Shown: positions 1,101 through 57,292 of the stretch, piece after piece | Position numbering within the stretch: position 1 is the stretch's first letter | Layout of the letters: the number at the start of each line of letters is the position of its first letter | NCBI GenBank assembly: GCA_948144175.1 | Contig: CANXME010002068.1 | Location: 2,356,001 to 2,420,000, forward strand | From: Closterium sp. NIES-65 | Lineage: Eukaryota; Streptophyta; Zygnematophyceae; Desmidiales; Closteriaceae | Length of the DNA: 64,000 nucleotides | Direction: 5' to 3' | Notes under the pieces: generated by a model | The model's input: the letters and a program-made list of their open reading frames with translations, nothing else | Told to the model about the DNA's origin: nothing | Databases searched by the model: none | Program-made: the position numbers and the translations under genes

Positions 1101-4100
1101 AGCTCGTGGACACTCGAGTGGGTGCGGACAAAGATTCTGGAGGAAGACTTCCGTCGCCCCCAACTGAGGGGTGGAGACGACGGCAGCAGCGGCTATGGGA
1201 TGCAAGGAAGCCGACGTGGCAGAGGACGTGGCTTCGGTGGTGCTGGACGCGGTGCAAAAAAGGACGACGACTCCAACGACCAACAAGGAGGTACCGGTTG
1301 GGGTCGCGGTGCGAAATCTGGACATGGGGGCAAGTCAGGTGCTGGTGGCAAAATGAAAGGGAGGTGCTGGTATTGTGAGAAGGAGGGGCACCCCTGGTTT
1401 TTGTGCTATAAGAAACCCGATGGATGGACCCCCCAGAATCGTCACCAGGATGTCGGCGCGCGGAGGAACCATAAAAACAGCGCGAGCATGGTCGCCGATT
1501 CGTCCGACAACAACCCGAAGCGCAGTAGCGGTGCGGAAAAGATGAAGCAGCGCACCGCGGGCCAGTTCTTCCATATTGGAGAGCAAGGAGAGCAGGGGGA
1601 GCAAGAAGACGCCTCTGCCAAGGTTGGAGCAGAGCTGCACCCCCTGGATTATTGGGTGTTGGACATGGGCACTACTTGGACGATGACGCCGCACAAGGAC
1701 CTGCTGGACCACGTACGCGCTGCACCGATCAACGAGGTGTGCTCCACCTCTGGACACGCGCTGAAGGTGGCTGGTGCGGGACGAGCTGCATTTAAGGGAG
1801 CGGATGGCAAGCCGGTGGTGCTGCACGACGTTCTCCTCGTTCCTGAACTCAAGGCCAACCTCATCTCCCTCCGTAAGCTTGGCAAGGCTTGGGTGAGCAC
1901 TAGCACGGATGGGGCACGCATTTACAAGGGGCAGCTGGGCAATCGGGTGCTTTGGGATCTGCACGAGAGCACGGACGTGTACAGATCCATATGGCAGCTG
2001 CCGGCGTTGGCGTGGCATGGTGGGGGGCAGGCTGGAGAGGGGTCTGCATCCCAGGGGGAGTGCAATGCCGTTGGAGGGGTTGGTGTAAAAGTGTCGGCCA
2101 GATCTGGGGAGACAGATTGGGCAACGGCATACCGACGCTTGGGGCATGTGGCAATGCCCTTGTTGAAGCAGTTGGAGAAAGATGGAGCCGTTAAGGGTCT
2201 GAAGCTGAACGGACAGCCACCTGATGAGAATTGTGAAATCTGTTTGCTCTCAAAGTTTACCCGTTTCCCCTTCCATAGTGTGGCTGGCAGGAGCAAGAAG
2301 CCGTTGGAGCTGGTCCACATGGACTTGGTGGGGCCGCTGCCGGTTCAGGGACACAAGGGGGAGCGGTACTTTCTGACCATAGTGGATGACTGGAGCAGGC
2401 TTATGTGGGCATATCCGCTGAAGCAGAAGGACCATGCCGCCTCTACGATACGGGAAGATTGGCTGCCATTTGTGGAGAAGCAAGCGGAGTGTGTGGTGAA
2501 GCGGATTAGGACAGATCGGGGTGGTGAGTTCCTTGGAGCTGAGATGACGGCCTGGCTCAAGAAGCAGGGCATCTAGAGGGAGCTGACCACGGCTTAAACC
2601 CCACAGTCTAGCGGTGTAGCAGAACGGGCGAACCGGACAATTGTGGAGATAGCTAGGGCGCTGCTCATAGAATCTGGGCTAGGCAACTTGATGTGGCCCC
2701 ATGCTGTTCGGCACGCTACCGTCGCTAGGAACAGGGTACTCACCAAGGTTGGGGATGACTCGTGGGTGCCGTTGGAGAGGTGGCTTGGGAGGAAGCCGCC
2801 GGTGGACATGCTGAGGGTGTTCGGTTGCATGGCAGTCGCTCACGTCCCCAAGACCTACCGCAGTAAGTTGTGGGCAAGTGCAATCTGGTGTGTGCATTTG
2901 GGGCTGGCTGCTGAGAGCAAGGGATGGCTGCTGTGGGAACCTTCTAAGGGTGTGTTGTTTGACAGCAGGGATGTGAAGTTTGTTGAGGGCATGATGTATG
3001 GGAGGTGGGAGAAACAGCCGGAGGCCAGGGTGTCCCAGCAGATGGAGCAGATCACCATGCAGCTGGACCTGACTCCTAGTGTGTGGGAGGAAGGAAAGGA
3101 GGCAGCTGCAGAGGGCGGTGATGGAGAGAAGGTGCAGGAGGCACCTGCTGGTGGAGGTGATGGTGTGGAGACTAGCGGTAGCACTAGTGGAGCTGCTGGA
3201 TTTGAGGGGGGAGAGCAGCAGCAGGGAAAAACTAAGAAGCCGAAGGGTGTTGTTATGAAGGGAAGGGAGACACCCGTCTCCAGGCCAGGACGTACCCGTA
3301 TGGCTACTAAGAAGCTGACTGCAGGAGCTGATGTCGCAGAGCAGCAGCTTGGGACAGAGGAGGCATTGCTGATTCTACCGCATGGCTATGATCCGGATGA
3401 GGAGGATGAACCTGCCTACTGTTTTCTTGCCCCTACACCAGAGGAACCAGCTAGCATGGAGGAGGCATTAGCTGGACCAGATAGGGAGAAGTGGCTGGTT
3501 TCCAGGGATGCTGAGTACCAGAGCCTGCTAGAGAATGGGACATGGGAGCTGGTGGTGCTGCCTGAGGGGAAGAAAGCCATACAGTGCAAGTGGGTGCTAA
3601 GGATCAAGACCGATGACAAGGGACAGGTCACCATCTACAAGAGCAGGCTGGTGGCGAAGGGGTTTATGCAGAAGGAGAAGCGGGACTTCAATGAGATCTT
3701 TGCTCCCACTGCCAAACCCCGTACCCTCTGTGTCTTGTTGGCAGATTCAACTGTTAGTGGGAAATTCATCATTCAGATGGATATATCTACGACATTCTTC
3801 AATGGGATTTTAGAGGAGGACGTGTACATGACGCAACCGCCTGGGTATGAGGATGGTACGGGCAGGGTGTGCAAGCTGAAAAGGTCCATCTACGGCTTGA
3901 AGGAGGCGCCACACTGCTGGTACCAGAAGCTGGCAGCTGTTTTAGAGGAGATGGGATTCAGGACCAGCACCTGTGATGAGAGCCTCTTTCTCAAGGGGGA
4001 GGGGAAGAAGCTGGTGCTGTTTCTGGTCTATGTGGACGATATTCTTCTCTTTAGTAGCAGCATGAAGGAGATCCAGAAGGTGCAGCAGCAGCTGATGGAG

Positions 4101-4849
4101 AACTTCAAGTGCAAGAACCTTGGGGAGGTAAAGTACTATCTCGGGATGCATGGGGAGAGGGATTTGGATCACAGGTGGTTGAAGCTGCACCAGGAGAAGT
4201 TCATCAAGGAGCTGGGGGAGAAGTACGGGATTGAGAATGAGCGCAAGGTTGCAACTCCCCTGCCAGCAGAATTCAAGCTTGTGAAAGCTGCAGAGGATGA
4301 AGGGGTTGAAGCCAAGGAGCAGCAGCAATTTCAGTCCTTGGTGGGCAGCCTCTTGTATGCAGCAGTTCACACAAGGCCCGACATCTCTTTCTCGGTTGGG
4401 CAGCTGGCCAGGGTGGTGCAGAATCCATCAGAGGAGCAGGTGGATGCAGCTGAGCGTGTGGTGAAGTATCTGAACTCTCACCAAAGCATTGGAGTTCAAT
4501 ACTCCGCATCTGCACAGGTGAAGCAAAAAGGGGTTGAGGTGCTGAAAGAGAAGGGGGAGAGGCTTGGAGAAGGCAAGCTCTTTCTCACTTGCTTTACCGA
4601 TGCTACGTGGACCTCTGAGAAGGAGGATTCCTCATCTGTGGGAGGAAATCTACGTAGTTGGAGGAGGACCTATAAGTTGGAGGTCAAAGAAGCAGACGGA
4701 GACAGCACTCTCTTCTGTGGAATCAGAGTACATGGCGATGTTTCATGGGGTGAAGGAGGTCATTTGGCTAAGGAGGCTGTTAGGGAGATTGTCCAGGAGC
4801 AAAAGGTTGCTACGCCGCTGTTTTGTGATAGCAAGGGAGCTCTTGGGAT
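1101..4849 (+). pseudogene. Gag C-terminus and Pol of element A, broken
   Basis: In the same frame as Gag: zinc knuckle CWYCEKEGHPWFLC (CX2CX4HX4C, about 1365-1406); protease site degenerated to LDMGTT, so the catalytic D-S/T-G is lost; GAG-pre-integrase and integrase with HMDLVGPLP and RTDRGGEF; then stops at 2574-2576 and 2595-2597 inside integrase; then VAERANRTIVE carrying the catalytic Glu. RT follows with QMDISTTF and YVDD (about 4030-4041). RNase H starts at LTCFTDATW, but a frame change near 4640 and a return near 4765 break it. At DSKGALG the sequence runs into a reversed LTR. Clearly a dead copy. Confidence 0.9.
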
Positions 4850-5942
4850 TGTTGGTGTAAGGGCTTAATAAATTCAAGCTATTAAGACTTTATCACACTT
4901 AAAAACCTCTCCTCGGGGTCACCTCCAAGGGTCCTTGGGTGCCTGGTACAAGACCAGCCCCTATCCTCGGGTCCGAGTTTGTAGAGAGAGGGATCAAGAG
5001 GGACTTCGTCAAAACAGCAAGAGTACCTTGAACGTCGCGCAGCGTATCGTGCAGACCGTCGACCGGATTAAGCTGAGAATTTCCTATATCGAAGCTCACT
5101 CTAAGAGCTTTAAAATAAGCCAAGTTGCCTCGCGAAAAGTTTTGCTATTACGAAGTTATGGCTCGGACAGCGTTAGCCTAGCGTTGGAGTGCTAGCGTAC
5201 TAGCGTTGACTCGGGTAGCATTCCGCCGTTGCACTGCGTAGAAAGGAAATTCCAGCGAGGAAGGAATTTGCTTGAATCAATTTCACTATATTCAGGTACA
5301 AACAGAGAAGGAATAAATAGCTCTAGCTAGCAAGGACCTTGGGAATCAACCTGGGAACAACCAAGGATGATCCCAAATAATTCCAAGCAACAGAACCAAC
5401 CTGGCTGGACAAAATAGCAGGTGGTAGGTTGGTGAACAACCTCTGATTCTGTTTTTCCAACCTGGGAAAACAACAACCAGGTTCAGGTCCTAAAAACAGA
5501 ACCTGTTTTGTCTTTGCCCAACCAGCCAAATGCTGGTTCCGCTGGTTTCCCCTGGCCCTGTAGCATGCAGATACAGACAAACAACATCCAACCTTCACCT
5601 AAATTGTACCCCTATAGTGCCTGCCCTGCTACACTATAGTGAACCAAACAAAACAGTACAATTTCGAGTTGGATAGAACTGAATCTGCGCAATCAAGTAA
5701 GCCGAACCGCAAAGCTTCCATCTTGGGTTCCTTTGCGAGCTCGTCCTTTCTGCTTGTACTGTTCATAGTGCGTACATTGTTATGCCGAAGCGCACATTGT
5801 ACGAGTACCTGCAAATGCTTCAAGCAAAATTGCGAAAGCAAACAAACACACGAACATACCATTCACGCGCAAATGCATTCGCACACACATACTCGTACAA
5901 ACAGACGGCAGGATGTCGTGCAATGTGAATTTGCACCCAACA
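4850..5942 (-). repeat. Solo LTR of family A, reversed, inside A's RNase H
   Basis: This 1093-bp stretch is the reverse complement of the LTR at 6189-7282, from TGTTGG to CCAACA. The flanks are GGGAT (4845-4849) and AAGAT (5943-5947), a plausible but imperfect 5-bp target duplication. The coding sense resumes directly after it. It is either a solo LTR left by a nested insertion or a recombination product. Confidence 0.9.
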
Positions 5943-12280: not shown

Positions 12281-12425
12281 AGTTGAGTTCCTAAAGAGAG
12301 GGTATTTGTGAGCTTATGGGGTTTTCTTGGTTGGGGACTCTCTCGGGACCTTCCTTCTCGTCCTCCTCTTTCCTCCACCTGGTTTCTTGCTACTCTAATT
12401 TTTTTGTGTGCTTCTTCTTAAACAA
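12281..12425 (+). other. Unassigned flank
   Basis: 145 bp between the LTR of C and element NA1. I recognise nothing in it. Confidence 0.5.
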
Positions 12426-12557
12426 TGTCAGAATGTTATGTTTGTCTAGCCCTCAGTGGGGTACTCAATAGTGAGTACAGCCCAATTTAGGGTTTGCTAT
12501 ATGTACTCAACTGCTTGCTAGTGAAACTCACTTCCACTCTTTCCTCATTTCTTCACA
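12426..12557 (+). repeat. 5' LTR of NA1
   Basis: 132 bp, TGTCAGAATG...CTTCACA, followed at once by the PBS. Matches 13860-13991. Confidence 0.9.
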
Positions 12558-12606
12558 TGGTATAGAGCTGGTTCCCTCCTGGGACTGTTCCTTCTTAGGA
12601 CCCACC
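12558..12606 (+). promoter_or_regulatory. PBS and leader box of NA1
   Basis: TGGTATAGAGC, then an imperfect TCCC/GGGA stem, then GGACCCACC at 12598-12606, a variant of the GGGCCCACC box seen in the other leaders. Confidence 0.75.
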
Positions 12607-13859
12607 ACTTCGCTAAACTTTTTTTTTCTGCCCTGCCCTTAGCGCGTTTCGCGCTCTGCCCTGCTGCCCGTTGCGGCCCTTCGTGGCCCCTTCGTGACCC
12701 CTTCGTGGCCCCTTCGCGACCCCGTCGCGGCCCCGTCACGGCCTCGCCCCGGCCCTGCCCCGTCGCCCGGCCCTGCCCCGTCGCCCTGTCGCCCCACCCC
12801 CCCCCCCCCCCCCCCCCGTCGCGGCCCCCCCTTCGCGGCCCCGTCGCGGCCCTACGTCGCGGCCCCCCGTCGCGGCCCTGCCCCGTCGCCCGCCGCGGCC
12901 CTGTCGAGGCCCTGCCCCGGCCCTGCCCCGACCCTGCCCCGACCCCGCCCCGGCCATGCTCCGTCGCCTGTCGCGGCACACCGGGGACCCGTGCACCGCC
13001 CCCCCCTCTTTTCCCGTCGCCTGTCGAGGCGACCTGAGGGGGCCGCGACCTTGGGGGGGGGGGGGGGGGGGGGGGGGGCGAGCGTCGCCCCTTCTACCGC
13101 CTGTTTTGGCGCCCTGGGAGGCCGCGCGTTGCCCCCCCCGCCCCCGTAACCTCCCTACCCGCCATCCCGCCCTGCCCTGTGTTAAGGTTTGGGGGTGGCG
13201 AGTAGGGGGTGGCGGGTGTGTGGTCTCCCTTGCTCCTCCTCCTCCTCTGTCTCCCACTGTTGCAGCTGCCGCTGAGGGGGGTGGGTGTGTGGGAGTCGAC
13301 GGAGTGGTGCTAGGGGGTGGGGTGTGAGTGAACCTAGGGTGCAGCAGGGGGTGTGTGAAAGGGGGGTGGGATAGTTTGTGGAGGTTGAAGGGGGGTGGCC
13401 GCCGTGAAGCCCGCAGCTCCAGTCGCTCGTGAGACCGTTGCGCCAGTCGCCCGTGAGCCCGTTGCGCCAGTCGCCCGTGAGCCAGTTGCTCCAGTCGCCC
13501 GTGAGTCCGTTGCTCCTGCCGCTCAGAGTTAGTCGCGGAGCCAGTTACTCCAGTAGCCCGTGTGCCAGTTGCTCCAGTTGCCAGTGTGCTAGTTGCTCTA
13601 GTTGCCCGTGTGCCAGTTGCTCCAGTTGCGCCGTGTGCCAGCAGCTACAGCTGCCGCCCACTACCTCCTCTCCTCTCATAGTCCCTCCTCCTCCACACTT
13701 GCCCTCGGTGATAGCCTCTAGCTTTGCTTACATTTGTGAACTTTAAACTCTTGCTTCTTATACTTGTGCTCAGATTGTGTGGTGACATTGTGATCCACCC
13801 TGAGCTTGTGTTTTGCTTGCTAGTTGTGCTGATTGCACCCCACTTTGGCTATGGGGGTA

Positions 13860-13991
13860 TGTCAGAATGTTATGTTTGTCTAGCCTGCAGTGGGGTACTC
13901 AATAGTGAGTACAACCCAATTTAGGGTTTGCTATATGTACTCAACTGCTTGCTAGTGAAACTCACTTCCACTCTTTCCTCATTTCTTCACA
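13860..13991 (+). repeat. 3' LTR of NA1
   Basis: 132 bp after the polypurine stretch TATGGGGGTA. Nearly identical to 12426-12557. Confidence 0.9.
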
Positions 13992-14932: not shown

Positions 14933-15172
14933 TGTTAGAATAAGCTAAGAGTTAGTAGGTTTAGGAGCCATGGTTTAGGAGCCTTGGTAGTTGAGTTCGA
15001 GGGTGAGGAGAGTGTCGAAAGAGTTGTAAAGGAGAATAGAGGTTTCACTACAGACTCAAGGGTACAAATATGAAAGAAGTGAAGCAAGGTGCACCACCTA
15101 ACAAGCAAGATAACTACACTAAGTCTACATTGCAGGCAGTTATAAAGTGATGTATACAATAACATTCTAACA
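14933..15172 (-). repeat. 3' LTR of TRIM1
   Basis: 240 bp; the plus strand reads TGTTAGAATAAGC...CATTCTAACA. Partner of 16451-16690. Confidence 0.92.
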
Positions 15173-16000: not shown

Positions 16001-16437
16001 GTAGGAGGGAGGGGAGGGCAAGGGCGCGGCTCCCAGGGCGCCCTGACGGGCGACGAGCTAGGGGGCCGCGCGGGCCCCCGAGAGCGCCTCGACGGGCGAC
16101 GGGAAGGGACCGCGCGCGGGCCCCCAAGACGCTGCGACGAGGCGACGGGAAGGGCCGGCTCGCGGGCCCCGAAAGCGCCGCGACGAGGCGACGGAAGAGG
16201 CCTGCGTGCGGGCCCCCAAAACGCCGCGACGAGGCGACGGTCGAAGCCGGCGCGCGGGCCCCCAAGACGCCGCGACGAGATAGGAACCCGCCGCGCGCCT
16301 CGGGGCGCACGGCGGGCAGAAAATCGCCACGCGCCCTGAGCGCGTGGCGGGAAGAAAAATAGGAGGTCGCGCGCCACGGGGCGCGCGACACACAGTAGGG
16401 CAGCGGAAGCAGGTGGGCCCACAAGCCAGGAGCATTT

Positions 16438-16450
16438 AGCTCTGATAGCA
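16438..16450 (-). promoter_or_regulatory. Primer-binding site of TRIM1
   Basis: The minus strand reads TGCTATCAGAGCT next to the LTR. Confidence 0.85.
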
Positions 16451-16690
16451 TGCTAGAATAAGCTAAGAGTTAGTAGGTTTAGGAGCCATGGTTTAGGAGC
16501 CTTGGTAGTTGAGTTCGAGGGTGAGGAGAGTGTCAAAAGAGTTGTAAAGGAGAATAGAGGTTTCACTATAGGTTCAAGGGTACAAATATGAAAGAAGTGA
16601 AGCAAGGTGCACCACCTAACAAGCAAGATAACTACACTAAGTCTACATTGCAGGCAGTTATAAAGTGATGTATACAATAACATTCTGACA
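16451..16690 (-). repeat. 5' LTR of TRIM1
   Basis: 240 bp with only a few differences from 14933-15172. Followed by the GAAAT target copy. Confidence 0.92.
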
Positions 16691-17439: not shown

Positions 17440-17567
17440 TGTAAGAATAGTAGAACAGGAATGAATGACTAAGTGAACGTTTGGTACAAATACAAACCCT
17501 AGAGAGCTGTACCCCATATGTGCTACCCCACTATAGCCTACAACAGCTATGTCATATATATCTGACA
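17440..17567 (-). repeat. 3' LTR of element E
   Basis: 128 bp; the plus strand reads TGTAAGAATAG...ATATCTGACA. Next to the PPT at 17568-17576. Confidence 0.95.
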
Positions 17568-18887: not shown

Positions 18888-21800
18888 CTAGCGGAGACCG
18901 TAGACTGGCCGTCGGAGGCTCCACTGGGTGCCAGGAGGAAAAGTCCTAGTGAAGCCAGGTGGACGGCGCAGCCAGATCTCCTCGTGCAGGCTACCCTGCA
19001 GGAACGCAGTGCTGAAGTCGAGAGAGTGAAGCTCGTAGTCGCGCTGAGCGGCTATGTGCAGCAGCACCTGAAGAGTGGTCATCTTCGGGGTGGGAGAGAA
19101 GGTCTGAAAGTAGTCAACTCCCTGCCGCTGACTGAAGCCACGAGCAACGTACCGCGCCTTGAAGATAGGTGGAGAGCCCGGCGGCCGCTTCACCCTGAAG
19201 ATCCACATGCCACTGACGATGTTCGCCCCAGGAGGGGGAACTGCGTCAACGTAGGTGCCTGTGGACTTCCAGGAAGCCATCTCTGCATCTATAGCTGCCT
19301 GCCACTGAGAGGAGTAGGGACCCTCTACGGCCTCCGCGTAAGAGCGCGGAGTCGGGATGTCTAGTGCATCCGGGTCTCCCTCAGGAGCAAGCAGTACAGA
19401 CGCGAGATGAGGTGAAGCAGCCGCCAGACACTCTAACTCCTCCTGCCTGTCCTCTAGGACGTCCGTGCCAAGGGCACACTCACCCCCGACGGACGGAGGA
19501 CAGACAGACGTAGACTTAGCAACAAGACTAGCAGCGTAGTCTAGACGACAGCGAGCAGCAAAGTCAAAGAGCTCAGCGACAAGAGCAGACGCAGCAGTGG
19601 ACTCAAAAGAGGGGTCAGTGACGACAGTAGCAAGCAGACGCGTGACAGTAGGACTGGCAGCACGAAGGGAGTCCGACTCAGAGTCGGCAAGCGCAGGAAG
19701 AGAGGACTCAGGAGGAGAAGGCAAAGGGGCACGCAGAGGAGCAGTGGACGGACGCAGAGACATCCGGTGCGTGCCAGGGACAGGAGGAGGACGCTGACGC
19801 GAACCGCGACCACTAGCGCGAGCAGCACGAACAGGCGACGCGGGACGAGACGCAGGCTCACGACGCTTAGCAAGACCTCCAGTAGGACCAGTGTAAGGAG
19901 AGGGAGCAGGCAGTGGAGAGGAAGGCTCCAACAGTGACTGCGACTGGACGGGCTGTGGACACTCTACCGGAGGAGAAAGACCAAGAACCTGCTGCAGGAG
20001 CGGAACGAAGTACGGCCGATGCCGCGCAGCAGCTCCAGACTCAGCAGGGACAGCACCAGCACCCCCAGCGACAGCACCAGCGCCACCAACACCTCCAGCG
20101 GCAGGACCTCCAGCAGCACCAGCAGCGAAACCACCGCCAGGACAGACAGCAGTAGTCTCAGCACCAACACCCTCAGCAGCTCCAGCTCCAGCTCCGGGAC
20201 CGGCAGCACCAGCACCCTCGACGGTCGAAGAAGCTCCAGCTCCAGCAGCACGCCTCAAGCGGCGAGCAAACCACTCGCGCAGCTCCTGTGGAGAGAGGGG
20301 CTCCCGGCGAGACGCAGCAGCAGGAGAAACCCCAGGCTCAGCAGCTCCAGACGCAGCACCCCCAGGCTCAGCAGCTCCAGACTCAGCACCCCCAGGCTCA
20401 GCAGCTCCAGACTCAGCACCCCCAGGCTCAGCAGCTCCCGACCCAGCACCACCTAGCTCAACAGCTCCAGGCACAGCACCCCCCGGCTCAGCACCCCCAG
20501 GCTCAGCACCCTCCGCAGTAGCACCCCCAGGCCCAGCACCCCCAGGCTCAGCACCCCCAGTAGCAGCACCTCCAGAGTCACCAGTAACCTCGACCGGGTC
20601 AACTGCGTCTACCTGGGACACACCTGAGGGGGCAGGAACCTGAGGGGGGAGGGGGTCTACCAGGGGGGGAACCGGCACAAGGAAGTCCGGCGGAGGGGGT
20701 AGGGAAGGAGTGCGGTAGGGGAAGAGGCGGTAGAAGGGGACTGACTCGTCGAACGTGACGTCCTGGGAGGACAGAACACGACGAGAGGAGGGGTGGTAAA
20801 ACTGCCACCCTGGAGCGTCTGTGGGGAAGCCAAGGAAGACACAGGGAGCAGCACGAGGGGACAGCTTGTCCGCAGACAAGTCGCGGACAAACGCCCGAGA
20901 TCCCCAGACACGGAACGCCGACGCATCGCCAACCTTCCCCGTCCACAGCAAGACTGGGGACATCGCGGGCCGAGAGACCCGGGGGTGAAGGTTGAGCTGA
21001 TGCGCCGCGTACCTCACCGCAAACGGCCACAGAAAATGGGGGGCAGCCGCATGCATCATGGACGTACGAGCGACATCCATGACCATGCCAATGCGGCGCT
21101 CAGCAATCCCATTTTGCTGTGGAGATTCCGGAAGCGTGAAGGTCTGGCGGATCCCCCGTGCACGACAGTAGTCTCGCAGAAGGCGCGAGGAGAACTCTCC
21201 GCCTCTGTCCGAGTGCAGACGCAGAACACGAAAGTCCGAGCCGAAGCTCTTCCTGAGCTGGAGACGAGCCTCGCGGATCCAGTCGATCAGCACCTCAGTG
21301 ACAGCACCCTTGCTGCGCAAGGGGAGGACTGTGGTGTAACGCGAGTAGTCGTCAACCACCAACAGAAAGTAGCGCTCGTGACCCTGCCCACGGACGGGGG
21401 CTGAGCCCCTCACGTCCATGTGAAGCGTCTGCAGAGGAGCCTCTGTCGGGGGGAACTGGGAGGAGTGAGGAGCAGCCCGGAGGCGCCCCTCGACACAGGG
21501 GACACAGGAAGGTCCTGGCCCGGAGGGAAGGGGAGGGAGAGACTGGGGAAGACCAGAGACAAGGACACGGGAAGCCATGCTCCGAAGACGGGGCAAGGAG
21601 GGGTGGCCAAGACGGTGGTGCCACAGGAGAGTCTCGTGAGACAGGAGGCGACAAGAACAGGGGGCAGACTCAGGACCTGACCGGGACGCAGCAGCAAGCA
21701 CCTGACCTGACGCAGCTACCTGAACAGACGCAGGGACAGGAGGAGACGTAGTGGTCAGGGTGTAGAGGCTCGACCCTGGCCGACGCGAGAACGTGGCCAG

Positions 21801-23636
21801 GTGTCGGCCTGTGCGTGCGTCCGTGCAGTGGGTCACCCGCTGACTCGCAGGAGTGAACTGGTGAACCCCCGTATCCTGCAGGTCCGCACCACTCACCAAG
21901 TTCGTAGAGAACGAGGGAAGGTACAGACCAGACAGGGTGCCCGAAGGGGCAGCCGGACACGGGAGGACAGTGGAGAAGTGAGAGAGGACAGGACCCCTAG
22001 AGGGGTCAGCCAGGGAGACCGCAACGGGCCGGCCAAGCGGCGTGAGGGTAGTGCGGTCTCGAAAGAAGGAGCGAGAAGCCCCGGAGTCAAGTGTGAAAGT
22101 GAGGGAGGATGGAGGCGACGCAGTACCTGAGAGCGCAGTCTCACCAGCACTTGAGAGCGCAGACGCACTGGCACCTAGAGCAGCAGCCTCACAAGCACCT
22201 AGCGCAGCAGTACCAATGCCCGGGTCGGGCGGGAAACACCGGTAACAGTCACCCTCCTCACTAATAGTCACAGCATACATAGCAGCAAGGATAGCATCAA
22301 AATCAAGATCAAAGATCGCTACACCAGCCCTAAGAAGCTCATCCCAGCGAGGGATCTCACTAGCCCCGGGGAACTGCTGACGCCAAGCGTCCGTCAGGCG
22401 GCCAAAGCAGCGCTGGGTGGAGTGGGCACCCCCACACTCCTCACCCGCGCGGTCGCCAGAGCGAAGGACGTAGGTACAAGGACCAGTACCCCCACCCCTC
22501 TGACGCCGAGTGTACCACTCACGGAGCTGCTGGGGCGGAGGGACGTCACGCGAACGCTGCTGCTGCTGCTGCTGCGAGCGCTGGCCACCACCACCGCCGC
22601 TTCGCTGCTGGGTACCGCCTCGACCAGCTCCACCTCCTCCGCCACCACCGCCTCCTCCGCCGCCGCCTCCCCCACCGTCACCGCCACCACTGCCGCCACC
22701 ACCACCGCCGCCGCCACCACCGCCGCCTCCTCCGCCGCTGCCACTACTACCACCACCACCCCCGCCACCACTCCCGCCGCCACCCCCACTCCCTCCGCCG
22801 CCTCCACCGCCACCTCCACCGTTCCCTCCAACTCCACCAGCTCCCTTGCCCCCCTTGCCCTTGCCAGAGCGGCGTCTCCCACTAGGGTCAGACGCCGCGC
22901 CAACCGACTCGAGACCAAGCAGGTCGGCAGCAGCAGCAGAGGCAACAGAGGGCAGGAGGGGGGAAGGAGAGCACCCCTCAAAGATGGGGGTGCGAGGGTC
23001 ACCACGAGAAGCTCCGACAGCGACGATGCTCTTCTCCGCCGCGAGAAGGGCCTTCTCGAGGACGTCGACGGTGAGGGTGGTGGGACAGACTGCGAGAAAG
23101 TGGTCCCTGACTACGCAAAGAGAGTCAGGGAGGCGCGCGACTACGTAGTAGAGAGTGATGTACATGGGGGGGGGGTTCTTAGCGCAGAACTCAGCAGGAA
23201 GGGCGGCGCGGTAGCGAGTGTCACTAGTGAGGAGGTGCGTAATGAGGTCAGCGTCAGTGGGAAAGGCAGAGAGGTCAGGAAAGAGGTAGGGAAGCATGAG
23301 ACGGCTCAGTGCAGCAGTGGCAGGGGAGGAGTAGCGCGCAACTACAGCGTCGTACAAGGTCTGAGCACTCTTGTACTGACTAAAGTACGCGCGCTCAGAG
23401 GTAGGGAGGTGGCGACGCACAGCAAGACGTGCAGCAGCATCGCGGGTGGCCCACTGAGAGCGCACAGTGGGATCAGCATCAGCAGCAGGGGCAGGAGAGG
23501 CGCCAGAAGTGAGGTCAAAGAGAGAGAGGCCGTCTGCCCTATCGCACTGTAAAAACAACTGCAAGTCGTCTACCCAGACCTCAAAGTCAATGGCGCGACC
23601 CTCAGCGTCAAAAGCTAGGACACTAGGGGTAGCCAT
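18888..23636 (-). CDS. Gag-Pol polyprotein of element E, ended by TAG in RT
   Basis: 1582 codons from MATPSVLAFD. I chose this start because relatives begin the same way (MASPTVLSFD, MASPQVLVFD); 14 further codons lie upstream in frame. Order: Gag 1-250; poly-glycine 265-340; finger C387-x13-C401-x3-H405-x4-C410; protease DSGA at 517-520; HHCC region with H673/H678 and C711/C714; integrase D741, D810, E846; Gly-Ala-Glu-Pro linker about 1020-1110; serine-rich region; RT from about 1470 (FKARYVARGFSQRQG). The TAG at 18888-18890 replaces the Gln codon of YGLRQAP, so it is a single CAG-to-TAG change. The RT active site lies beyond it. Confidence 0.93.
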   Translation of the reverse strand: MATPSVLAFDAEGRAIDFEVWVDDLQLFLQCDRADGLSLFDLTSGASPAPAADADPTVRSQWATRDAAARLAVRRHLPTSERAYFSQYKSAQTLYDAVVARYSSPATAALSRLMLPYLFPDLSAFPTDADLITHLLTSDTRYRAALPAEFCAKNPPPMYITLYYVVARLPDSLCVVRDHFLAVCPTTLTVDVLEKALLAAEKSIVAVGASRGDPRTPIFEGCSPSPLLPSVASAAAADLLGLESVGAASDPSGRRRSGKGKGGKGAGGVGGNGGGGGGGGGGSGGGGGSGGGGGGGSSGSGGGGGGGGGGGGGGGSGGGDGGGGGGGGGGGGGGGGAGRGGTQQRSGGGGGQRSQQQQQQRSRDVPPPQQLREWYTRRQRGGGTGPCTYVLRSGDRAGEECGGAHSTQRCFGRLTDAWRQQFPGASEIPRWDELLRAGVAIFDLDFDAILAAMYAVTISEEGDCYRCFPPDPGIGTAALGACEAAALGASASALSSAGETALSGTASPPSSLTFTLDSGASRSFFRDRTTLTPLGRPVAVSLADPSRGPVLSHFSTVLPCPAAPSGTLSGLYLPSFSTNLVSGADLQDTGVHQFTPASQRVTHCTDARTGRHLATFSRRPGSSLYTLTTTSPPVPASVQVAASGQVLAAASRSGPESAPCSCRLLSHETLLWHHRLGHPSLPRLRSMASRVLVSGLPQSLPPLPSGPGPSCVPCVEGRLRAAPHSSQFPPTEAPLQTLHMDVRGSAPVRGQGHERYFLLVVDDYSRYTTVLPLRSKGAVTEVLIDWIREARLQLRKSFGSDFRVLRLHSDRGGEFSSRLLRDYCRARGIRQTFTLPESPQQNGIAERRIGMVMDVARTSMMHAAAPHFLWPFAVRYAAHQLNLHPRVSRPAMSPVLLWTGKVGDASAFRVWGSRAFVRDLSADKLSPRAAPCVFLGFPTDAPGWQFYHPSSRRVLSSQDVTFDESVPFYRLFPYRTPSLPPPPDFLVPVPPLVDPLPPQVPAPSGVSQVDAVDPVEVTGDSGGAATGGAEPGGAGPGGATAEGAEPGGAEPGGAVPGAVELGGAGSGAAEPGGAESGAAEPGGAESGAAEPGGAASGAAEPGVSPAAASRREPLSPQELREWFARRLRRAAGAGASSTVEGAGAAGPGAGAGAAEGVGAETTAVCPGGGFAAGAAGGPAAGGVGGAGAVAGGAGAVPAESGAAARHRPYFVPLLQQVLGLSPPVECPQPVQSQSLLEPSSPLPAPSPYTGPTGGLAKRREPASRPASPVRAARASGRGSRQRPPPVPGTHRMSLRPSTAPLRAPLPSPPESSLPALADSESDSLRAASPTVTRLLATVVTDPSFESTAASALVAELFDFAARCRLDYAASLVAKSTSVCPPSVGGECALGTDVLEDRQEELECLAAASPHLASVLLAPEGDPDALDIPTPRSYAEAVEGPYSSQWQAAIDAEMASWKSTGTYVDAVPPPGANIVSGMWIFRVKRPPGSPPIFKARYVARGFSQRQGVDYFQTFSPTPKMTTLQVLLHIAAQRDYELHSLDFSTAFLQGSLHEEIWLRRPPGFTRTFPPGTQWSLRRPVYGLR
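20331..20580 (-). repeat. 15-bp coding repeat for the GGAEP-type linker in E
   Basis: The plus strand repeats CCAGGCTCAGCACCC with variants; the minus strand encodes Gly-Gly-Ala-Glu-Pro pentapeptides. The same linker is present in G, H, I and J. Confidence 0.85.
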
Positions 23637-23989
23637 GACGACGACAGCGAAGCAGTGTAAGCGGTAGGGGAAGAGCACGCAGTGACAGCGGTACTGTGCT
23701 CACCGGGCAGGGCAGGTCGGGCAGCTCTGCAGAAGGGCGGCTCGGCGACTCAGCGACTCGGCTACTGGGCGGCTCGGCTCCCGGGCGGCTCGGAGACAGG
23801 GCGGCTCGGGTGCACTGCTGCTCGGTGGTCCGGCGGCTCGGCTGCTGCAGGTGGGCGGCTCGGCTGCTGCAGGTGGGCGACTCGGCTGCTGCAGGTGGGC
23901 GGCTCGGCTGCTGCAGGTGGGCGACTCGGCTGCTGCAGTTGGGCGACGCGAGAGGAAGGGGCGGCGGGGCCGGGTTGCAGGGACGGCGA

Positions 23990-24560
23990 AGGGCCGTAGT
24001 AGCGGCGGCCGTAGGGCCGCAGGTAGGAGGCGGCAGGGCCGCGCAAGGGCGGGGTGGCCGCGTCTGAGTGGGCGGCGGGGCCGCGGCTGAGGAGGCGGCG
24101 GGGCCGCGTCGGAGCGAGCAGCAGGGCCGCTGCTGAGCAAGCGGCGGGGCCGCGTCTGAGCAGGCGGCGGGGCCGCGTCGTAGCGGGCGGCGGGGCCGCG
24201 GCTGAGCAGGCGGCGGGGCCGCGTCGTAGTGGGCGGCGGGGCCGCGGCTGAGCAGGCGGCGGGGCCGCGTCTGAGTGGGCGGCGGGGCCGCGTCTGAGCA
24301 GGCGGCGGGGCCGCGTCGGAGCGAGCAGCGGGGCCGCGGCTGAGTAGGCGGCGGGGCCGCGTCTGAGTGGGCGGCGGGGCCGCGTCTGAGCAGGCGGCGG
24401 GGCCGCGTCGGAGCGGGCGGCGGGGCCGCGTCTGAAGGGGCGGGCGGGGCCGCGTCCGAAGTGGGCGGCGGGGCCGCGTCTGAAATGGCGGCGGGGCCGC
24501 GTTCGAAAGGGGCGGCGGGGCCGCGTCTGAAAGGGCGGCGGGGCCGCGAGGGAAGGGCGA
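23990..24560 (-). repeat. GC minisatellite in leader of element E
   Basis: Units of about 20-22 bp built on GGCGGGGCCGCGTCTGAG. No plausible gene; long open frames here are a by-product of composition. Confidence 0.82.
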
Positions 24561-24596: not shown

Positions 24597-24663
24597 AGCG
24601 CGCCTCGGGGCGCGCTTCGGTGGGCCCTAGGCGAAGTTCCCACAGGGAACCCGCTCTATACCA
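24597..24663 (-). promoter_or_regulatory. PBS, leader hairpin, box and GC hairpin of element E
   Basis: From the LTR inwards on the minus strand: TGGTATAGAGC (24653-24663), hairpin GTTCCC-TGT-GGGAAC (24636-24650), GGGCCCACC (24619-24627), then AGCGCGCC-CCGA-GGCGCGCT (24597-24616). The order recurs in relatives with different stem sequences. Confidence 0.75.
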
Positions 24664-24791
24664 TGTGAGAATAGTAGAACAGGAATGAATGACTAAGTGA
24701 ACGTTTGGTACAAATACAAACCCTAGAGAGCTGTACCCCATATGTGCTACCCCACTATAGCCTACAACAGCTATGTCATATATATCTGACA
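24664..24791 (-). repeat. 5' LTR of element E
   Basis: 128 bp; differs from the 3' LTR only at the fourth base of the plus-strand text. Followed by ATACG. Confidence 0.95.
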
Positions 24792-25197: not shown

Positions 25198-25426
25198 GGA
25201 GTGTGGGCCCACAAGACGCCGCGACGAGATAGGAGCCCGCCGCGCGCCTCGGGGCGCACGGCGGGCAGAAAACCGCCACGCGCCCCGAGCGCGTGGCGGG
25301 AAGAAAAAACAGAGGTCGCGCAACACGGGGCGCGCGACACACAGTAGGGCAGCGGAAGCAGGTGAGCCCAGAAGCCAGGAACGTTTAGCTCTGATAGCAT
25401 GTTAGAGTAAGCTAAGAGCTAGTAGG
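25198..25426 (-). mobile_element. TRIM1-type fragment: leader, PBS and LTR start
   Basis: Matches 16260-16477 of TRIM1: three GC hairpins (25236-25265, 25274-25298, 25316-25337), PBS (25389-25399) and the first 27 bases of the LTR (25400-25426), where element F is inserted. The rest is missing. Confidence 0.85.
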
Positions 25427-25561
25427 TGTCAAACATTATATATGTTGTTGTGTTTGTTTAGGCAACAGTGGGTTAGTCTATAGGGGGTACACAATTCTAG
25501 GGTTAGGTACTTGTACTGTTTTCACTGCTAGTTCATTCATTCCTAATCAGTTATTCCAACA
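25427..25561 (+). repeat. 5' LTR of element F
   Basis: 135 bp, TGTCAAACATT...TATTCCAACA, next to the PBS. No 3' LTR partner in the window. Confidence 0.85.
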
Positions 25562-25609
25562 TGGTATAGAGCAGGTCCTTCCTAGGACCGAATTTTTTAA
25601 GGGCCCACC
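25562..25609 (+). promoter_or_regulatory. PBS, leader hairpin and box of element F
   Basis: TGGTATAGAGC, stem GGTCCT/AGGACC with TCCT loop (25574-25589), GGGCCCACC (25601-25609). The stem sequence differs from that of E but is fully paired. Confidence 0.75.
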
Positions 25610-26387
25610 ACTACCTACCTACCTACCTACCTACCTGCGCCCTAGGGCGCCTCGGTTTTTTCACGGCCACCTAAGGCCCCGACGGCTCGCCCCTAGAGGC
25701 CCCGAACGGCCCACGCGCTCGCCCCTAGCGCCCACCCTTCCGGCCCCGCGATCGCCCCTAGAGGCCCCGTCGGCCCCGCACTTACCTCCCTAGAGGCCCA
25801 GAACGGCCTCGTCGGCCCCGCGCTCACCTCCCTAGAGGTCCCCTACGGCCCCGTCGGCCCCGCGCTCACCTCCCTAGAGGCCCCGAACGGCCCCATCGGC
25901 CCCTAGAGGCCCCCTTGACGGCCCCGCGCTTACCTCCCTAGCGGCCCCGAACGGCCCCGTCGGCCCCTAAAAGGCCCCGTTAAGGCCCCGCGCTCACCTT
26001 CCTAGCGGCCCCGAACGGCCCCGTCGGCCCTTAGAGGCCTCGTTAAGGCCCAGAACGGCCCCGCGCTCACCTCCCTAAGGCCCCAAACGGCCCCGTCGTC
26101 CCCGCGCCCACCGTCCCTAGAGGCCCCAACCGGCCCCGCACCCACCGCCCCTAAAGGCCCCGAGCGGCCCGTTACCGCCACAGCCCGGGACCGAACCGAG
26201 CCGCGCGACCGAACCGAGCCGCGCGACCCGAGCCGAGCCGCGCGACCCGAGCCGAGCCGCGCGAACCCAGCCGAGCCGCGCGACCCGACCCGAACCGAGC
26301 CGCCCCACCCGAGCCGCGCCGCCCTGCCCGAACCGAGCCGCCCTAACTGCTTCTACTACTGCTACTGCGGCTACTTCTACTGCTCCT
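25610..26387 (+). other. Leader of element F with short CG-rich repeats
   Basis: A (CTAC)n run near 25612-25635, then about 450 bp of CGGCCCCGAACGGCCCCGTC-type units and ACCGAGCCGCGCGACC units up to the Gag start. No gene seen. Confidence 0.75.
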
Positions 26388-32399: not shown

Positions 32400-32935
32400 C
32401 GCGGCAGCTGCAATGGCGGCTGCTCCAGGGGCGGCTGCTGCAGTGGCGGCTGCTCCAGGGGCGGCTGCTGCAGTGGCGGCTGCTCCAGGGGCGAGTGCTG
32501 CAGTGGCGGCTGCTCCAGGGGCGGCTGCTGCAGTGGCGGCTGCTCTAGGGGCGGCTGCAGCAGTGGCGGCTTCTCCAGGGGCGACTGCTGCAGTGGCAGC
32601 TGCTCAAGGGGCGGCTTCTGCAGTGGCGGCTGCTCCAAGGGCGACTGCTGCAGTGGCGGCTGCTCCAGGGGTGGCTACTGCAGTGGCGGCTGCTCCAGGG
32701 GCGGCTACTGCAGTGGCGGCTGCTATAGTGGCCGCTGCTCGAGGGGCGGCTGCTGCAGTGGCGGCTGCTCCAGGGGCAGCTGCTACAATGGCGGCTACTG
32801 CAGCGGCGGCTGCTCCACGGGCGGCTGCTGCAGTGGCGGCTGCTCTAGGGGCGGCTGCTGCAGTGGCGGCTGCTGCAGTGGCGGCTGCTCCAGGGGCGGC
32901 TGCTTCTGCTGGGCGGCTCGGCGGCTCGGGTGCCT
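32400..32935 (-). repeat. 30-bp minisatellite in leader of element G
   Basis: About 17 units of GGCGGCTGCTCCAGGGGCGG followed by CTGCTGCAGT. The plus strand has an open alanine-rich frame, an artefact of a repeat length divisible by three. Confidence 0.9.
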
Positions 32936-32939
32936 GCTA

Positions 32940-33798
32940 GGGGTGGCGACGGGGCCGGGTAGGGGCGGCGACGGGGCCGCTAGGGGCGGCGACGGGGCCG
33001 CCTAGGGAGGGGAGTGGCGACGTGGCCGCTAGGGGCGGCGATGTGGCCGCTTTGGGGCGGCGACGGGGCCGCGTAGGGAGGGGAGCGGCGACGGGGCCGC
33101 TAGGAGCGGCGACGGGGCCGTGTAGGGGCGGCGGCAAGGCCGCGTAGGGGCGGCAACGGGGCCGCGCAGGAATGTCAGCGGCGACGGGGCCGCTAGGGGC
33201 GGCGACAGTGCCGCTAGGGGCGGTGACGGGGCCGCGTAGGGGCGGCGACAGGGCCGCGTAGGGGCGGGGACGGGGCCGCGTAGGGAGGTGAGCGGCTACG
33301 GGGCCGCTAGGGGCGGCGACGGGGCCGCGTAGGGGCGGCGACGGGGCCGCGTAGGGGCGGCAACGGGGCGGCGTAGGGAGATTAGTGGCGACGGGACCGC
33401 TAGGGGCGGCGACGGGGCCACGTAGGAGCGGCTACGTAGCCGCGTAGGGAGGGGAGCGGCTACGGGGCCGCTAGGGGCGGCGACGGGGCCGTGCAGGGGC
33501 GGCTACGGGGCCGCTAGGGGCGGCTACGGGGCCGCGTAGGTGTGGCAACGGGGCCGCGTAGGGGCGGCTACGGGGCCGCTAGGGGCGGCTACGGGGCCGC
33601 GTAGGGGCGGCAACGGGGCCGCGTAGGTAGGGAGGCGGCAACGGGGCCGCTAGGGGCGGCGACAGGGCCGCTAGGGGCGGCGACGGGGCCGCGTAGGGGC
33701 GGTGACGGGACCGCTAGGGGCCGCGAGGGGCCTGGAAGGGCGGCTACGGGGCCGCTGAGGGTGGCGCGAGGGGCCTTGAGAGGGGCCTCTAAGAGAGG
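32940..33798 (-). repeat. About 20-bp GC minisatellite in leader of element G
   Basis: Units around GGCGACGGGGCCGCGTAGGG and GGCTACGGGGCCGCTAGGGG over some 850 bp. No other content seen. Confidence 0.88.
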
Positions 33799-34122: not shown

Positions 34123-34168
34123 GGTGGGCCCAAGGAAGCGTTCCCACTAGGGAACCTGCTCTATACCA
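34123..34168 (-). promoter_or_regulatory. PBS, leader hairpin and box of element G
   Basis: Minus strand: TGGTATAGAGC (34158-34168), stem GTTCCC/GGGAAC with a four-base loop (34140-34155), GGGCCCACC (34123-34131). Confidence 0.75.
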
Positions 34169-37861: not shown

Positions 37862-38003
37862 TGTCAAAACATATGCATGTTATTATCTAGGCTATATTGG
37901 GGCTAGTGTTAGGGGGTACACAAATTATCTCGACCCTTTAGTTTTGTACCCCAACCTTGACCTACGGTAATCACACACCTTTTTCTTGCCTAAGTTTCTG
38001 AGA
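37862..38003 (+). repeat. 5' LTR of element H
   Basis: 142 bp, TGTCAAAACATATG...GTTTCTGAGA. The end is GA rather than CA; the PBS starts at the next base. Confidence 0.85.
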
Positions 38004-38050
38004 TGGTATCTAGAGCAGTAGGTCTTTAGGACCTAAGATTAGGGCCCACC
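38004..38050 (+). promoter_or_regulatory. PBS, leader hairpin and box of element H
   Basis: TGGTATCTAGAGC (38004-38016), stem TAGGTC/GACCTA (38019-38035), GGGCCCACC (38042-38050). Confidence 0.75.
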
Positions 38051-44857: not shown

Positions 44858-45109
44858 GCTCAGTGTGAGTGGTGACGTTGTGATCCACGTAGAGCTGTGT
44901 TTTGTTTCTTCTCTTGACTGGTCTTGTGACCATTGCTTGCTCTGGCTATCCCCCATTTCGCCTATGGGGGTGTGTCAAAACATATGCAAGTTATTATCTG
45001 GGCTATATTGGGGCTAACCTTAGGGGGTACACAAATCATCTCGACACTCTAGTTTTGTACCCCAACCTTGACCTAATCACACACCTTTTTCTTGCCTAAG
45101 TTTCTAAGA
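44858..45109 (+). repeat. 3' end and 3' LTR of element H
   Basis: Stem-loop with GCTC/GAGC and GTGG/CCAC (44858-44895), PPT hairpin CCCCCA/TGGGGG before 44973, then the 137-bp LTR (44973-45109) ending TTTCTAAGA and the target copy CAGCC. Confidence 0.88.
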
Positions 45110-45477: not shown

Positions 45478-45604
45478 TGTCAAACTTATACTCTACAGTT
45501 TGTTTAGGCTGTAGTGGGGTAGTTACTATGGGGTACAGTAAGTTTAGGTTTTCCTACTTGTACCCACCACTTTTCTAGTGCACACACACTTGTTCATTCT
45601 GACA
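45478..45604 (+). repeat. 5' LTR of element I
   Basis: 127 bp, TGTCAAACTTATACTC...CATTCTGACA, next to the PBS. Confidence 0.9.
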
Positions 45605-45659
45605 TGGTATTACGAGCCTAGGTTAGGAACCTAGGACCGCTTAGTCCTAAGGGCCCACC
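45605..45659 (+). promoter_or_regulatory. PBS, leader hairpin and box of element I
   Basis: TGGTATTACGAGCC, stem CCTAGGTT/AACCTAGG with AGG loop (45617-45635), GGGCCCACC (45651-45659). Confidence 0.76.
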
Positions 45660-53852: not shown

Positions 53853-53997
53853 TGTCAGAATGTTATTATCTAGCCTGTAGTGGGGTGCTCTATAGCGAGT
53901 ACAACCCATCTAGGGTTTGCTATATGTATCCTCATTGCTGCTAGTGAAACACCTCTTCTTCATTCTCATTTCTTCTCATGCTATCAGAGCATCTACG

Positions 53998-55511
53998 TGT
54001 CAGAATATTATCTTATTGTTCTAGCCTGTAGTGGGGTGCTCTATAGCGAGTACAACCCTTCTAGGGTTTGCTATTTGTATCCTCATTCTTGCTAGTTCAA
54101 TCCTCTCTCTTTCTTTCTTCTAACTTTGACATGCTATCAGAGCAGGTCGATCCCCTTGGATCGATCCTGTGGGTGTGTCCCCACCTTGCTTCCGCTGCTA
54201 ATTTTTCCTCCCGCCGTGCGCCCCGAGGCGCGGCGGTTTTCTGCCCGCCGTGCGCCCCGAGGCGCGCGGCGGTTCATTGCCCGCTGTGCGCCCCGAGGCG
54301 CGCGGCGGGCTTCTCCCCTTCGTCGCGGCCCCGCCCCGGCCCGTCGCCGCCCGTGCGCCTGCCCGGCTCGGCCCCGCTCTACGTCGCGGCCCTGCCCCGG
54401 CCCGTCGCCGCCCGTGCGCCTGCCCGGCTCGGCCCCGCTCTACGTCGCGGCCCCGCCCCGGCCCGTCGCCGCCCGTGCGCCTCCCCGGCTCGGCCCCGCC
54501 CTACCTTCGCGGCCCCGCCCAACGTTGCGGCCCCGCCCTATGTCGCGGCCCCGCCCTACGTCGCGGCCCCGCCCTATGTCGCGGCCCCGCCCCGACCGTC
54601 GCGGCCCCGCCCCTCGTCGCGGCCCCGGCCCCGACCCCCCCCCCCCCCCCCCCCCTTTTTCTCCCCTCCCCCCAATTCCCGTCGTCCGTCGTGGCGACCT
54701 GAGGGGGCCGCTTGCGGCCCCCTCAGGTCGCCACGACGGACGACGGGAGGGGCGAGCTGTGGGGTGGCGGGTATGGGGGTGGTCGGTGTGCCTTCCTCCC
54801 TTTCTCCTCCTCCTCCTTCGTCTCCCACTGCTGCAGCTGTCGCTGAGGGGGGTGGTTGTGTGGGAGACTGGGTTTAGGGTTTAAGGGGGGTGCGTGGGAG
54901 TAGAGCTAGTGGTGTAGCAGTGGGTGTGTATCAGGGGGGTGGGACTGTGTGTGGGAGGATGAGCGGAGGTTGCCAGTTTGTCGTCAGCAGCACCTGTAGT
55001 CCGGGGCGCTGTCCCGGTAGCCCAGTCGTAGCCAGCTGTGCCAGCCGCCCGTGGGTCCGTTGCCCGTCCGCCGCTATTTGAGCCGCGTGGCCTGTTACTC
55101 CTGTAGTCCGGGCGCTGTCCGGTAGCCGCTGTGCCAGTCTGCCTCCTGTTGCCCGTGTGTCTGCAGCTTCAGCCGTCGCCTCCTGTCTCCTCTCCCCTCA
55201 CTCTCCCTCCTCCTCCTCACTTGCCCGTTGTGACTACCACTAGCTTTGCTTATAATTGTACACTCTAAACTATTTCTTCTTGAACTTGTGCTCAGAATGT
55301 GTGGTGACATTGTGATCCACCCTGAGCTTGTTTTTGCTTTGCCTGCTCTGCTGATTACACCCCACTTTGGCTATGGGGGTGTGTCAGAATATTATCTTAT
55401 TGTTCTAGCCTGTAGTGGGGTGCTCTATAGCGAGTACAACCCTTCTAGGGTTTGCTATTTGTATCCTCATTCTTGCTAGTTCAACCCTCTTTCTTCCTTC
55501 TAATTTTGACA
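53998..55511 (+). mobile_element. Non-autonomous element NA3
   Basis: LTRs 53998-54131 and 55382-55511, perfect duplication CTACG (53993-53997 and 55512-55516). PBS TGCTATCAGAGC (54132-54143); leader hairpin TCGATCC/GGATCGA (54147-54164); three GC hairpins (54211-54236, 54245-54272, 54280-54309); GC repeats; a 72-bp palindrome; interior similar to TRIM1 and NA1; 3' stem-loop (55290-55326) and PPT hairpin. No protein. Inserted a few bases after the PBS of NA2. Confidence 0.92.
54677..54748. repeat. 72-bp near-perfect palindrome in NA3
   Basis: Arms of 35 bases (54677-54711 and 54714-54748) are exact reverse complements around a two-base centre TT. The arms contain GGCGACCTGAGGGGGCCGC, present once in NA1. 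Confidence 0.95.
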
Positions 55512-55790
55512 CTACGGTCCTGGCCTGTGGGCCCACCCAAGTGCTTTCGTCGCCCGTCGCCAACGGCCCCGTCGCCGACCCTAGCGGCCCCGTCGCCGCT
55601 CCTATCGGCCCCGTCGCCGCCGCCACCGGCCCTGTCGTCGCCGCCAGCGGCCCCGTCGCCGCCTCCAGCGGCCCCGTCGCCGCCACTTCCGGCCTCGGCC
55701 CTGCCCCGGCCATGCCCCGTTGCCAGCCGCGGCGCACCGTGGGCACGTGCACCGCCCCCCCCCCCCCTTTTCCCGTCGCTTGTCGAGGCG

Positions 55791-57118: not shown

Positions 57119-57292
57119 TGTCAGATTTATATGACATAGCTATTGTAGGCTATAGTGGGGTAGCACATATGGGGTACAACTTTCTAGGGGTTTGTATTTG
57201 TACCCAACTTTCACTTAGTCATTCATTCCTCGTTCTAGTTTTCTCATGGTATCGAGCAGGTTCCCTCGTGGGAACTGTTCCTAGGGCCCACC
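57119..57292 (+). repeat. Inner 5' LTR, PBS, hairpin and box of J
   Basis: LTR 57119-57246 (128 bp, like element E's LTR), PBS TGGTATCGAGC (57247-57257), stem GTTCCC/GGGAAC (57260-57275), GGGCCCACC (57284-57292). Confidence 0.87.

Follow-up and report, generated by a model that had tools for sequence, protein, structure and literature searches.

The window, meaning the whole 64,000-nucleotide stretch of the Closterium sp. NIES-65 genome analysed here (874 Mb in total), contains nested Ty1/copia elements with RVT_2, rve and gag_pre-integrase domains. In a domain search, an open reading frame inside the element called E (18888-23699, minus strand) carried rve, gag_pre-integrase and SH3 domains ahead of RVT_2 (2.9e-22); the best RVT_2 match (3.6e-63) lay in another element, at 2598-4868. 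An RVT_2-family reverse transcriptase is thus preceded by integrase, the Ty1/copia order. Six elements (E, H, I, NA1, NA3 and B) have both LTRs inside the window. These LTRs are about 130-240 bp long, start with TGT and finish with CA or GA, and in all six the 5' LTR adjoins the first base of the PBS (TGGTAT or TGCTAT) and a purine tract, GGGGGT, lies at most two bases from the 3' LTR. The 5-bp TSDs are identical in E, B, H and NA3, and near-identical in NA1 and I. The LTR pair, the TSD, the PBS at the 5' LTR and the purine tract before the 3' LTR are those of a Ty1/copia element. The two LTRs of E (24664-24791, the 5' LTR, and 17440-17567; TSD CGTAT) are 99.2% identical, so E moved recently; identity is 97.5% in B (16451-16690 and 14933-15172) and 90.1% in H (37862-38003 and 44973-45109), and the LTRs of I end at 45604 and about 52488. 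The short elements NA1 (LTRs of about 133 bp at 12425-12557 and 13859-13991), NA3 and B have 1.2-1.3 kb between their LTRs and the same layout as the long ones.

Leaders in the window

In E, F, G, H, I and J the leader runs from the PBS through a short hairpin to a nine-nucleotide box, GGGCCCACC. On the minus strand, E has the PBS TGGTATAGAGC abutting its 5' LTR (24653-24663; one base short of a perfect initiator tRNA-Met complement), the hairpin GTTCCC/GGGAAC (24636-24650) and the box, complementary to nt 26-34 of that tRNA (24619-24627). The same stem is found in G, also on the minus strand (PBS 34158-34168, hairpin 34140-34155, box 34123-34131), and in J on the plus strand (PBS variant TGGTATCGAGC at 57247-57257, hairpin 57260-57275, box 57284-57292). 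The remaining hairpins on the plus strand differ: GGTCCT/AGGACC in F (PBS 25562-25572, hairpin 25574-25589, box 25601-25609, with tRNA complementarity extending through ACCAC), TAGGTC/GACCTA in H (PBS variant TGGTATCTAGAGC at 38004-38016, hairpin 38019-38035, box 38042-38050) and CCTAGGTT/AACCTAGG in I (PBS variant TGGTATTACGAGC at 45605-45617, hairpin 45617-45635, aligning to the antisense T arm, box 45651-45659, then a D-arm-like antisense remnant). NA1 has a PBS, an imperfect hairpin and a near-box, GGACCCACC, with one mismatch (12558-12606, plus strand). The NA3 leader (54132-54198, plus strand; hairpin 54147-54164) lacks GGGCCCACC, its GGGCCC being lost, and is antisense to linear nt 12-75 of tRNAiMet (74.6% over 71 columns, E-value 7.5e-5). 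The leader of B (16391-16450, minus strand; PBS TGCTATCAGAGC) is antisense to linear nt 3-41 (82% over 39, E-value 7.5e-5).

An earlier note had placed seven stems after the PBS and described the box as exact in E, F, G, H, I and J and near-exact in NA1; every stem was read exactly where and as described (7/7), and the box assignments were confirmed. Two further exact boxes had escaped it, at 16412-16420 (minus strand, in B) and 55529-55537 (plus strand), which brings the window total to eight, against a shuffle mean of 1.51 (largest 6, 100 shuffles). The exact box is thus present in long coding elements (E, H and I) as well as in the short element B. Within 53985-55537, NA3 (TSD CTACG) appears inserted in the leader of another such element, between PBS and box; the segment at 55512-55537 (plus strand), which holds the exact box at 55529-55537, looks like the 3' part of this split leader.

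Other repeats accompany these leaders. A B-like fragment just upstream of the LTR of F (25205-25427, 92.8% identical to 16256-16478) also matches antisense tRNAiMet at 25340-25377. GC-rich tandem repeats lie downstream of the boxes of E, F, G and J (24047-24548, 25763-26138, 32401-33755 and 57461-58011, respectively), with units from about 22 bp upward that are different in each element. Directly after the box, E-like leaders carry a second GC-rich inverted repeat, GCGCGCCCCGAGGCGCG (about 24598-24616 on the minus strand, and also in sampled leaders L033, L036 and L107).

The box and the initiator tRNA-Met

In reverse complement, the box is identical to GGUGGGCCC, a segment (nt 26-34) of the initiator tRNA-Met encoded by this genome. 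The segment covers the 5' strand of the anticodon stem together with two bases of the loop and the anticodon's first base. The PBS (TGGTAT..AGAGC), for its part, is complementary to this tRNA's 3' end. A genome search for initiator tRNA genes, which have GGTGGGCCC at the anticodon stem, gave 29 sites matching the anticodon-arm pattern; tRNA-Met(CAT) was called at all ten of these loci that were retrieved, and these contain GGTGGGCCCATAACCC. Among the 67 nine-base windows of the tRNA, the box target ranks first in predicted duplex stability (-20.1 kcal/mol). As in Ty1, the primer tRNA is matched outside its 3' end by a complementary downstream box. Judged by its sequence, the unvarying box beside the hairpin is another segment with complementarity to the primer, and this accounts for the box better than a local RNA fold does.

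The linkage of box and PBS holds genome-wide. A search for TGGTAT followed after 30-60 bases by GGGCCCACC gave 26,439 places, and its reversed control 4; the box alone occurs 46,540 times (reversed control, 5,750), and the PBS alone, in the form CATGGTATMGAGC that lacks one base, 23,177 times (control, 2). All counts come from one genome, and the site samples below were listed in contig order rather than drawn at random. The exact box was present in 87 of 100 listed CATGGTATMGAGC places. Ninety of these were retrieved as leaders, of which 77 carried the exact box 22-59 nt downstream and 84 a box with at most one mismatch; the other ten places all carry the box according to the combined PBS and box search. 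One of the exact-box misses, L143, has GGGCCCAC at a greater distance. Of 84 sampled leaders, 83 had a box beginning 35-42 nt downstream, counted from the PBS start.

Across 27 leader clusters, built by a simple word-sharing rule, the nine box columns hold 1.54-2.0 bits. The downstream edge is sharp: the next two columns, often AC and also compatible with the tRNA, hold 0.67 and 0.85 bits, the four after them 0.02-0.17, beginning with 0.09 and 0.17, and 0.1 is reached within three bases. The upstream edge is less so, with an A at -1 and a T at -6 each conserved in 25 of 27 clusters; the A at -1 does not pair with A35 of the tRNA, which counts against a two-part tRNA-binding site. Among 70 retrieved sites with a perfect PBS, the box was present in six, all with CA directly before the PBS, and absent in 64, 15 of which also have CA there. 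Many elements on the same primer tRNA thus lack the box, which is therefore not generally required. These 70 were part of 100 listed sites, and seven of the remaining 30 carry the box, so 6/70 underestimates its share; at least 13 of the 100 have it.

Complementarity to the tRNA extends beyond the box in some families. When 30 leaders were compared with the antisense tRNA, B, NA3 and I aligned well beyond the box (p = 0.002, the floor for 500 shuffles), I over the T arm, the anticodon stem and part of the D arm. E, J and NA1 were borderline (p about 0.06), since little outside the box region matches. Genome-wide, the PBS end followed by an antisense D-arm word, CTTCCGCTGC, was found at 3,759 places (control, 0). 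The middle of these sequences, unused in their selection, fitted the antisense tRNA in 35 of 41 cases, with fewer than 5% of 50 shuffles doing as well; the 41 were hand-picked from 100 listed, with near-duplicates dropped by eye. Many sequences of this class read CCTGTGGGCCCACC, which corresponds to the two strands of the anticodon stem in antisense, without the seven bases of the loop, a skip that CCC repeats at nt 32-34 and 39-41 would permit. The GTTCCC hairpin is joined to the D-arm word in one listed sequence and in L118 and L170, which links the two leader classes. Most of the listed NA3-type sequences are without GGGCCC yet multicopy, a further observation against a two-part site.

Because the antisense match includes the D and T arms in some families, an antisense copy of the tRNA appears to be the source of the leader. 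Most likely, reverse transcriptase copied through the whole tRNA primer and left antisense tRNA behind the LTR. In the simplest history this read-through would occur in plus-strand synthesis; the parts useful for gripping the primer would have been kept while the remainder drifted and decayed. In HIV-1, plus-strand synthesis stops mainly at m1A58 (PMC13191261).

Predicted dimers, the PBS and the hairpin

Dimers of leader and tRNA were predicted by folding that takes no account of tRNA modifications or tertiary structure. Of the eight exact-box leaders in the window, seven have the box fully paired with nt 26-34; in G other pairing outcompetes the box, and none of its nine bases is so paired. 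With the box masked, predicted association is weaker by 6.7-11.6 kcal/mol in six leaders; because masking alone is a weak control, shuffled boxes were added. The association gain tops at least 195 of 200 shuffled boxes in six of the eight leaders, with none equal or better in B, F and H, three each for J and the split leader at 55512, and five in I. For E and G the gain is unexceptional, being equalled or exceeded by 28 and 40 of the 200 shuffles, respectively. The MFE dimers (about -57 to -61) have the T arm partly invaded and are favoured over a neat form with both hairpins kept (about -47 to -51, a rough sum).

The PBS itself is weakened in most sampled box-bearing leaders. Only 12 of 100 box-bearing leaders have a perfect 12-mer PBS, and 71 lack one of the two bases opposite tRNA nt 69/70, a loss that costs about 5.6-7.0 kcal/mol; the imperfect variants tried gave -12.9 to -16.1 kcal/mol, against -19.9 for the perfect PBS. 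At this same spot the PBS of most sampled box-bearing leaders is one base short or has extra bases, in the window at 24653-24663, 38004-38016, 45605-45617 and 57247-57257. The PBS is normally rewritten from the tRNA in each cycle; the imperfect form persists even in the recently moved E. The box would compensate for the weakened PBS. A further-reaching proposal, which we offer tentatively and regard as rather doubtful, is that the elements captured an antisense copy of the whole primer tRNA, and that the anticodon-stem segment rather than the PBS became the main anchor. The anticodon stem would then set the choice of primer and the PBS only the start point, leaving the PBS free to weaken because the box alone is predicted to bind as strongly as a perfect PBS. 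Another group of sites (L011, L043, L045, L049 and L077) has an LTR end that is often gggattctgaca, the PBS TGGTATCAGAGC and then a stretch like GGTCTCGGGTTCGAATCCCGG, which resembles the sense-strand T arm of a tRNA (B box).

Between PBS and box, a Watson-Crick stem of at least 5 bp starting at most 4 nt from the PBS end was found in 66 of 77 distinct leaders (73 selected by the box and four added by hand), against 2.5% of shuffles. This position-locked test was used because stem searches free of position were rarely significant for single leaders. Among leaders chosen by the PBS alone, 80 of 90 had such a stem, as did 18 of 27 cluster representatives and about 3% of shuffles; these 18 are not independent, as 11 share the stem GTTCCC/GGGAAC and three more have part of it. 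Two leaders, L042 (judged by eye) and L146, keep the box without such a hairpin. At least six hairpin sequence types occur. With the register counted from the loop, 22 hand-picked leaders show four Watson-Crick pair types at pairs 1 and 4-6 and three at pairs 2 and 3. A paired change (GGTCCTA/TAGGACC against GGTCCTT/AAGGACC) separates otherwise identical leaders, and NA3-like leaders, by reading of the sequences, have lost one pair on both sides.

The hairpin of changing sequence that the earlier note proposed is therefore real, and the covariation it saw is weaker than stated: a few clean paired substitutions or paired indels distinguish families, but most differences, by our reading, are register shifts in which the stem has re-formed around a shared AGGT...GGAC-like core. 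The consensus fold it suggested looking for did not emerge, as RNAalifold predicted zero pairs on a MAFFT alignment of the same 22 leaders; in our opinion this is because arms in different registers were not aligned. The hairpin sits at the position of the T-arm complement, to which the I family still aligns. It is a recurrent structure, secondary to the box and less conserved. Of the roles suggested at the time, primer placement is best supported, since the box complements the primer tRNA, a match that had been missed; packaging and dimerisation are without direct support.

Interpretation and relation to known systems

From sequence and predicted pairing, we think it probable that the leader of this Ty1/copia-type group is a bipartite binding site for initiator tRNA-Met, tripartite in some families. 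The PBS abutting the LTR would pair with the 3' end of the tRNA and set the start of DNA synthesis; the GGGCCCACC box would open the anticodon stem and grip nt 26-34; and in part of the families CTTCCGCTGC would pair with the D arm. The hairpin probably keeps the stretch between PBS and box folded, holding both at a fitting distance. Pairing of box and tRNA would take place in the particle, where it may help tRNA recruitment or initiation.

The antisense origin could also stand by itself, the leader being a relic of primer read-through whose box was kept by descent or re-copied each cycle and has no present role. Such an origin is suggested by the way the antisense match extends over T and D arms in several families, and columns upstream of the box are partly conserved as well. 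We nevertheless consider the absence of any present role unlikely: columns from +11 on hold 0.02-0.52 bits between clusters, against 1.54-2.0 in the box, and re-copying would restore the PBS first, yet one PBS base is missing at 23,177 places, and also in E with its 99.2% identical LTRs. A role at the DNA level, with the box as a downstream promoter element bound by a TCP transcription factor, is very unlikely. Sites like GTGGGCCCAC are targets of plant TCP factors; the motif GGGCCCAC agrees with the TCP consensus, and many D-arm families read GTGGGCCCAC, but this would leave unaccounted for the adjoining antisense to the D and T arms, the fixed position after the PBS and the families that read GGGCCCGCC.

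Alternatively, the self-complementary GGGCCC within the box could pair two genomic RNAs as a dimerisation or packaging signal, the hairpin forming part of a kissing structure. Ty1 has kissing loops near its PBS and a palindromic dimerisation site has been proposed for Ty3 (PMC5454406, PMC11381356). However, the ACC that follows the palindrome is nearly as conserved (1.54-1.77 bits), and in monomer folds of the eight box leaders the palindrome never lies whole in a hairpin loop, which makes this reading highly improbable here. Hardly credible, in our judgement, is a second priming site at which the 5' half of tRNAiMet, cut in the anticodon loop, would prime at the box: the box does complement the exact 3' end of a half tRNA cut after nt 34, and the plant lineages Osser, Bryco and part of Gymco-II are reported to prime from a half tRNA-Met (PMC6317226), but in all six two-LTR elements the LTRs end directly before TGGTAT or TGCTAT and not at the box.

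If the leader is a bipartite primer site, one genome supplies tens of thousands of its natural variants, with a near-invariant contact, a variable hairpin, imperfect PBSs and more or less antisense tRNA. They make it testable how bipartite primer sites arise (by capture of antisense tRNA through read-through) and what a PBS must match. The box can also serve annotation as the motif of a group in which the PBS often falls short of a perfect match over 12 bases.

Primer contacts beyond the PBS are known elsewhere. In HIV-1, tRNALys3 contacts the genome outside the PBS, a subject touched on in PMC13191261; this is a likeness in principle, with a different virus, tRNA and sites. Copia primes from a half tRNA and Ty5 from a 3' end generated when the tRNA is cut in its anticodon loop. 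The anticodon region (Ty5) or a half tRNA (copia, Osser, Bryco) is involved there too; in those systems, however, the complement is the priming site, whereas here the LTR abuts a 3'-end PBS (TGGTAT or TGCTAT) rather than an anticodon-region complement, and the anticodon-stem complement begins 35-42 nt after the PBS start. The available part of a survey of 13,863 plant elements (PMC6317226) gives PBS types and no second contact, and in the open-licence literature we found no report of a 3'-end PBS at the LTR combined with a downstream anticodon-stem contact.

In the yeast elements Ty1 and Ty3, genomic RNA is described as contacting the primer tRNA at additional places. In Ty3, the PBS is bipartite and two separated element segments bind one tRNAiMet (PMC5371799, PMC11381356), as proposed here, but the second Ty3 segment lies at the opposite end of the RNA. 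In Ty1, the PBS and boxes 0, 1 and 2.1 contact tRNAiMet, the boxes complementing the T and D hairpins (PMC5454406). Shared with Ty1 are the element type, the presumed primer tRNA and the combination of a PBS with short segments farther downstream that complement other regions of the tRNA. By contrast, the main box here is one 9-nt block against the anticodon stem rather than boxes against the T and D hairpins, a D-arm segment is found in a subset only, a hairpin occupies the T-arm position and the PBS is imperfect in most sampled copies. The leader is best read as a variant of the extended tRNA contact of Ty1 and Ty3, one that would use the anticodon stem.
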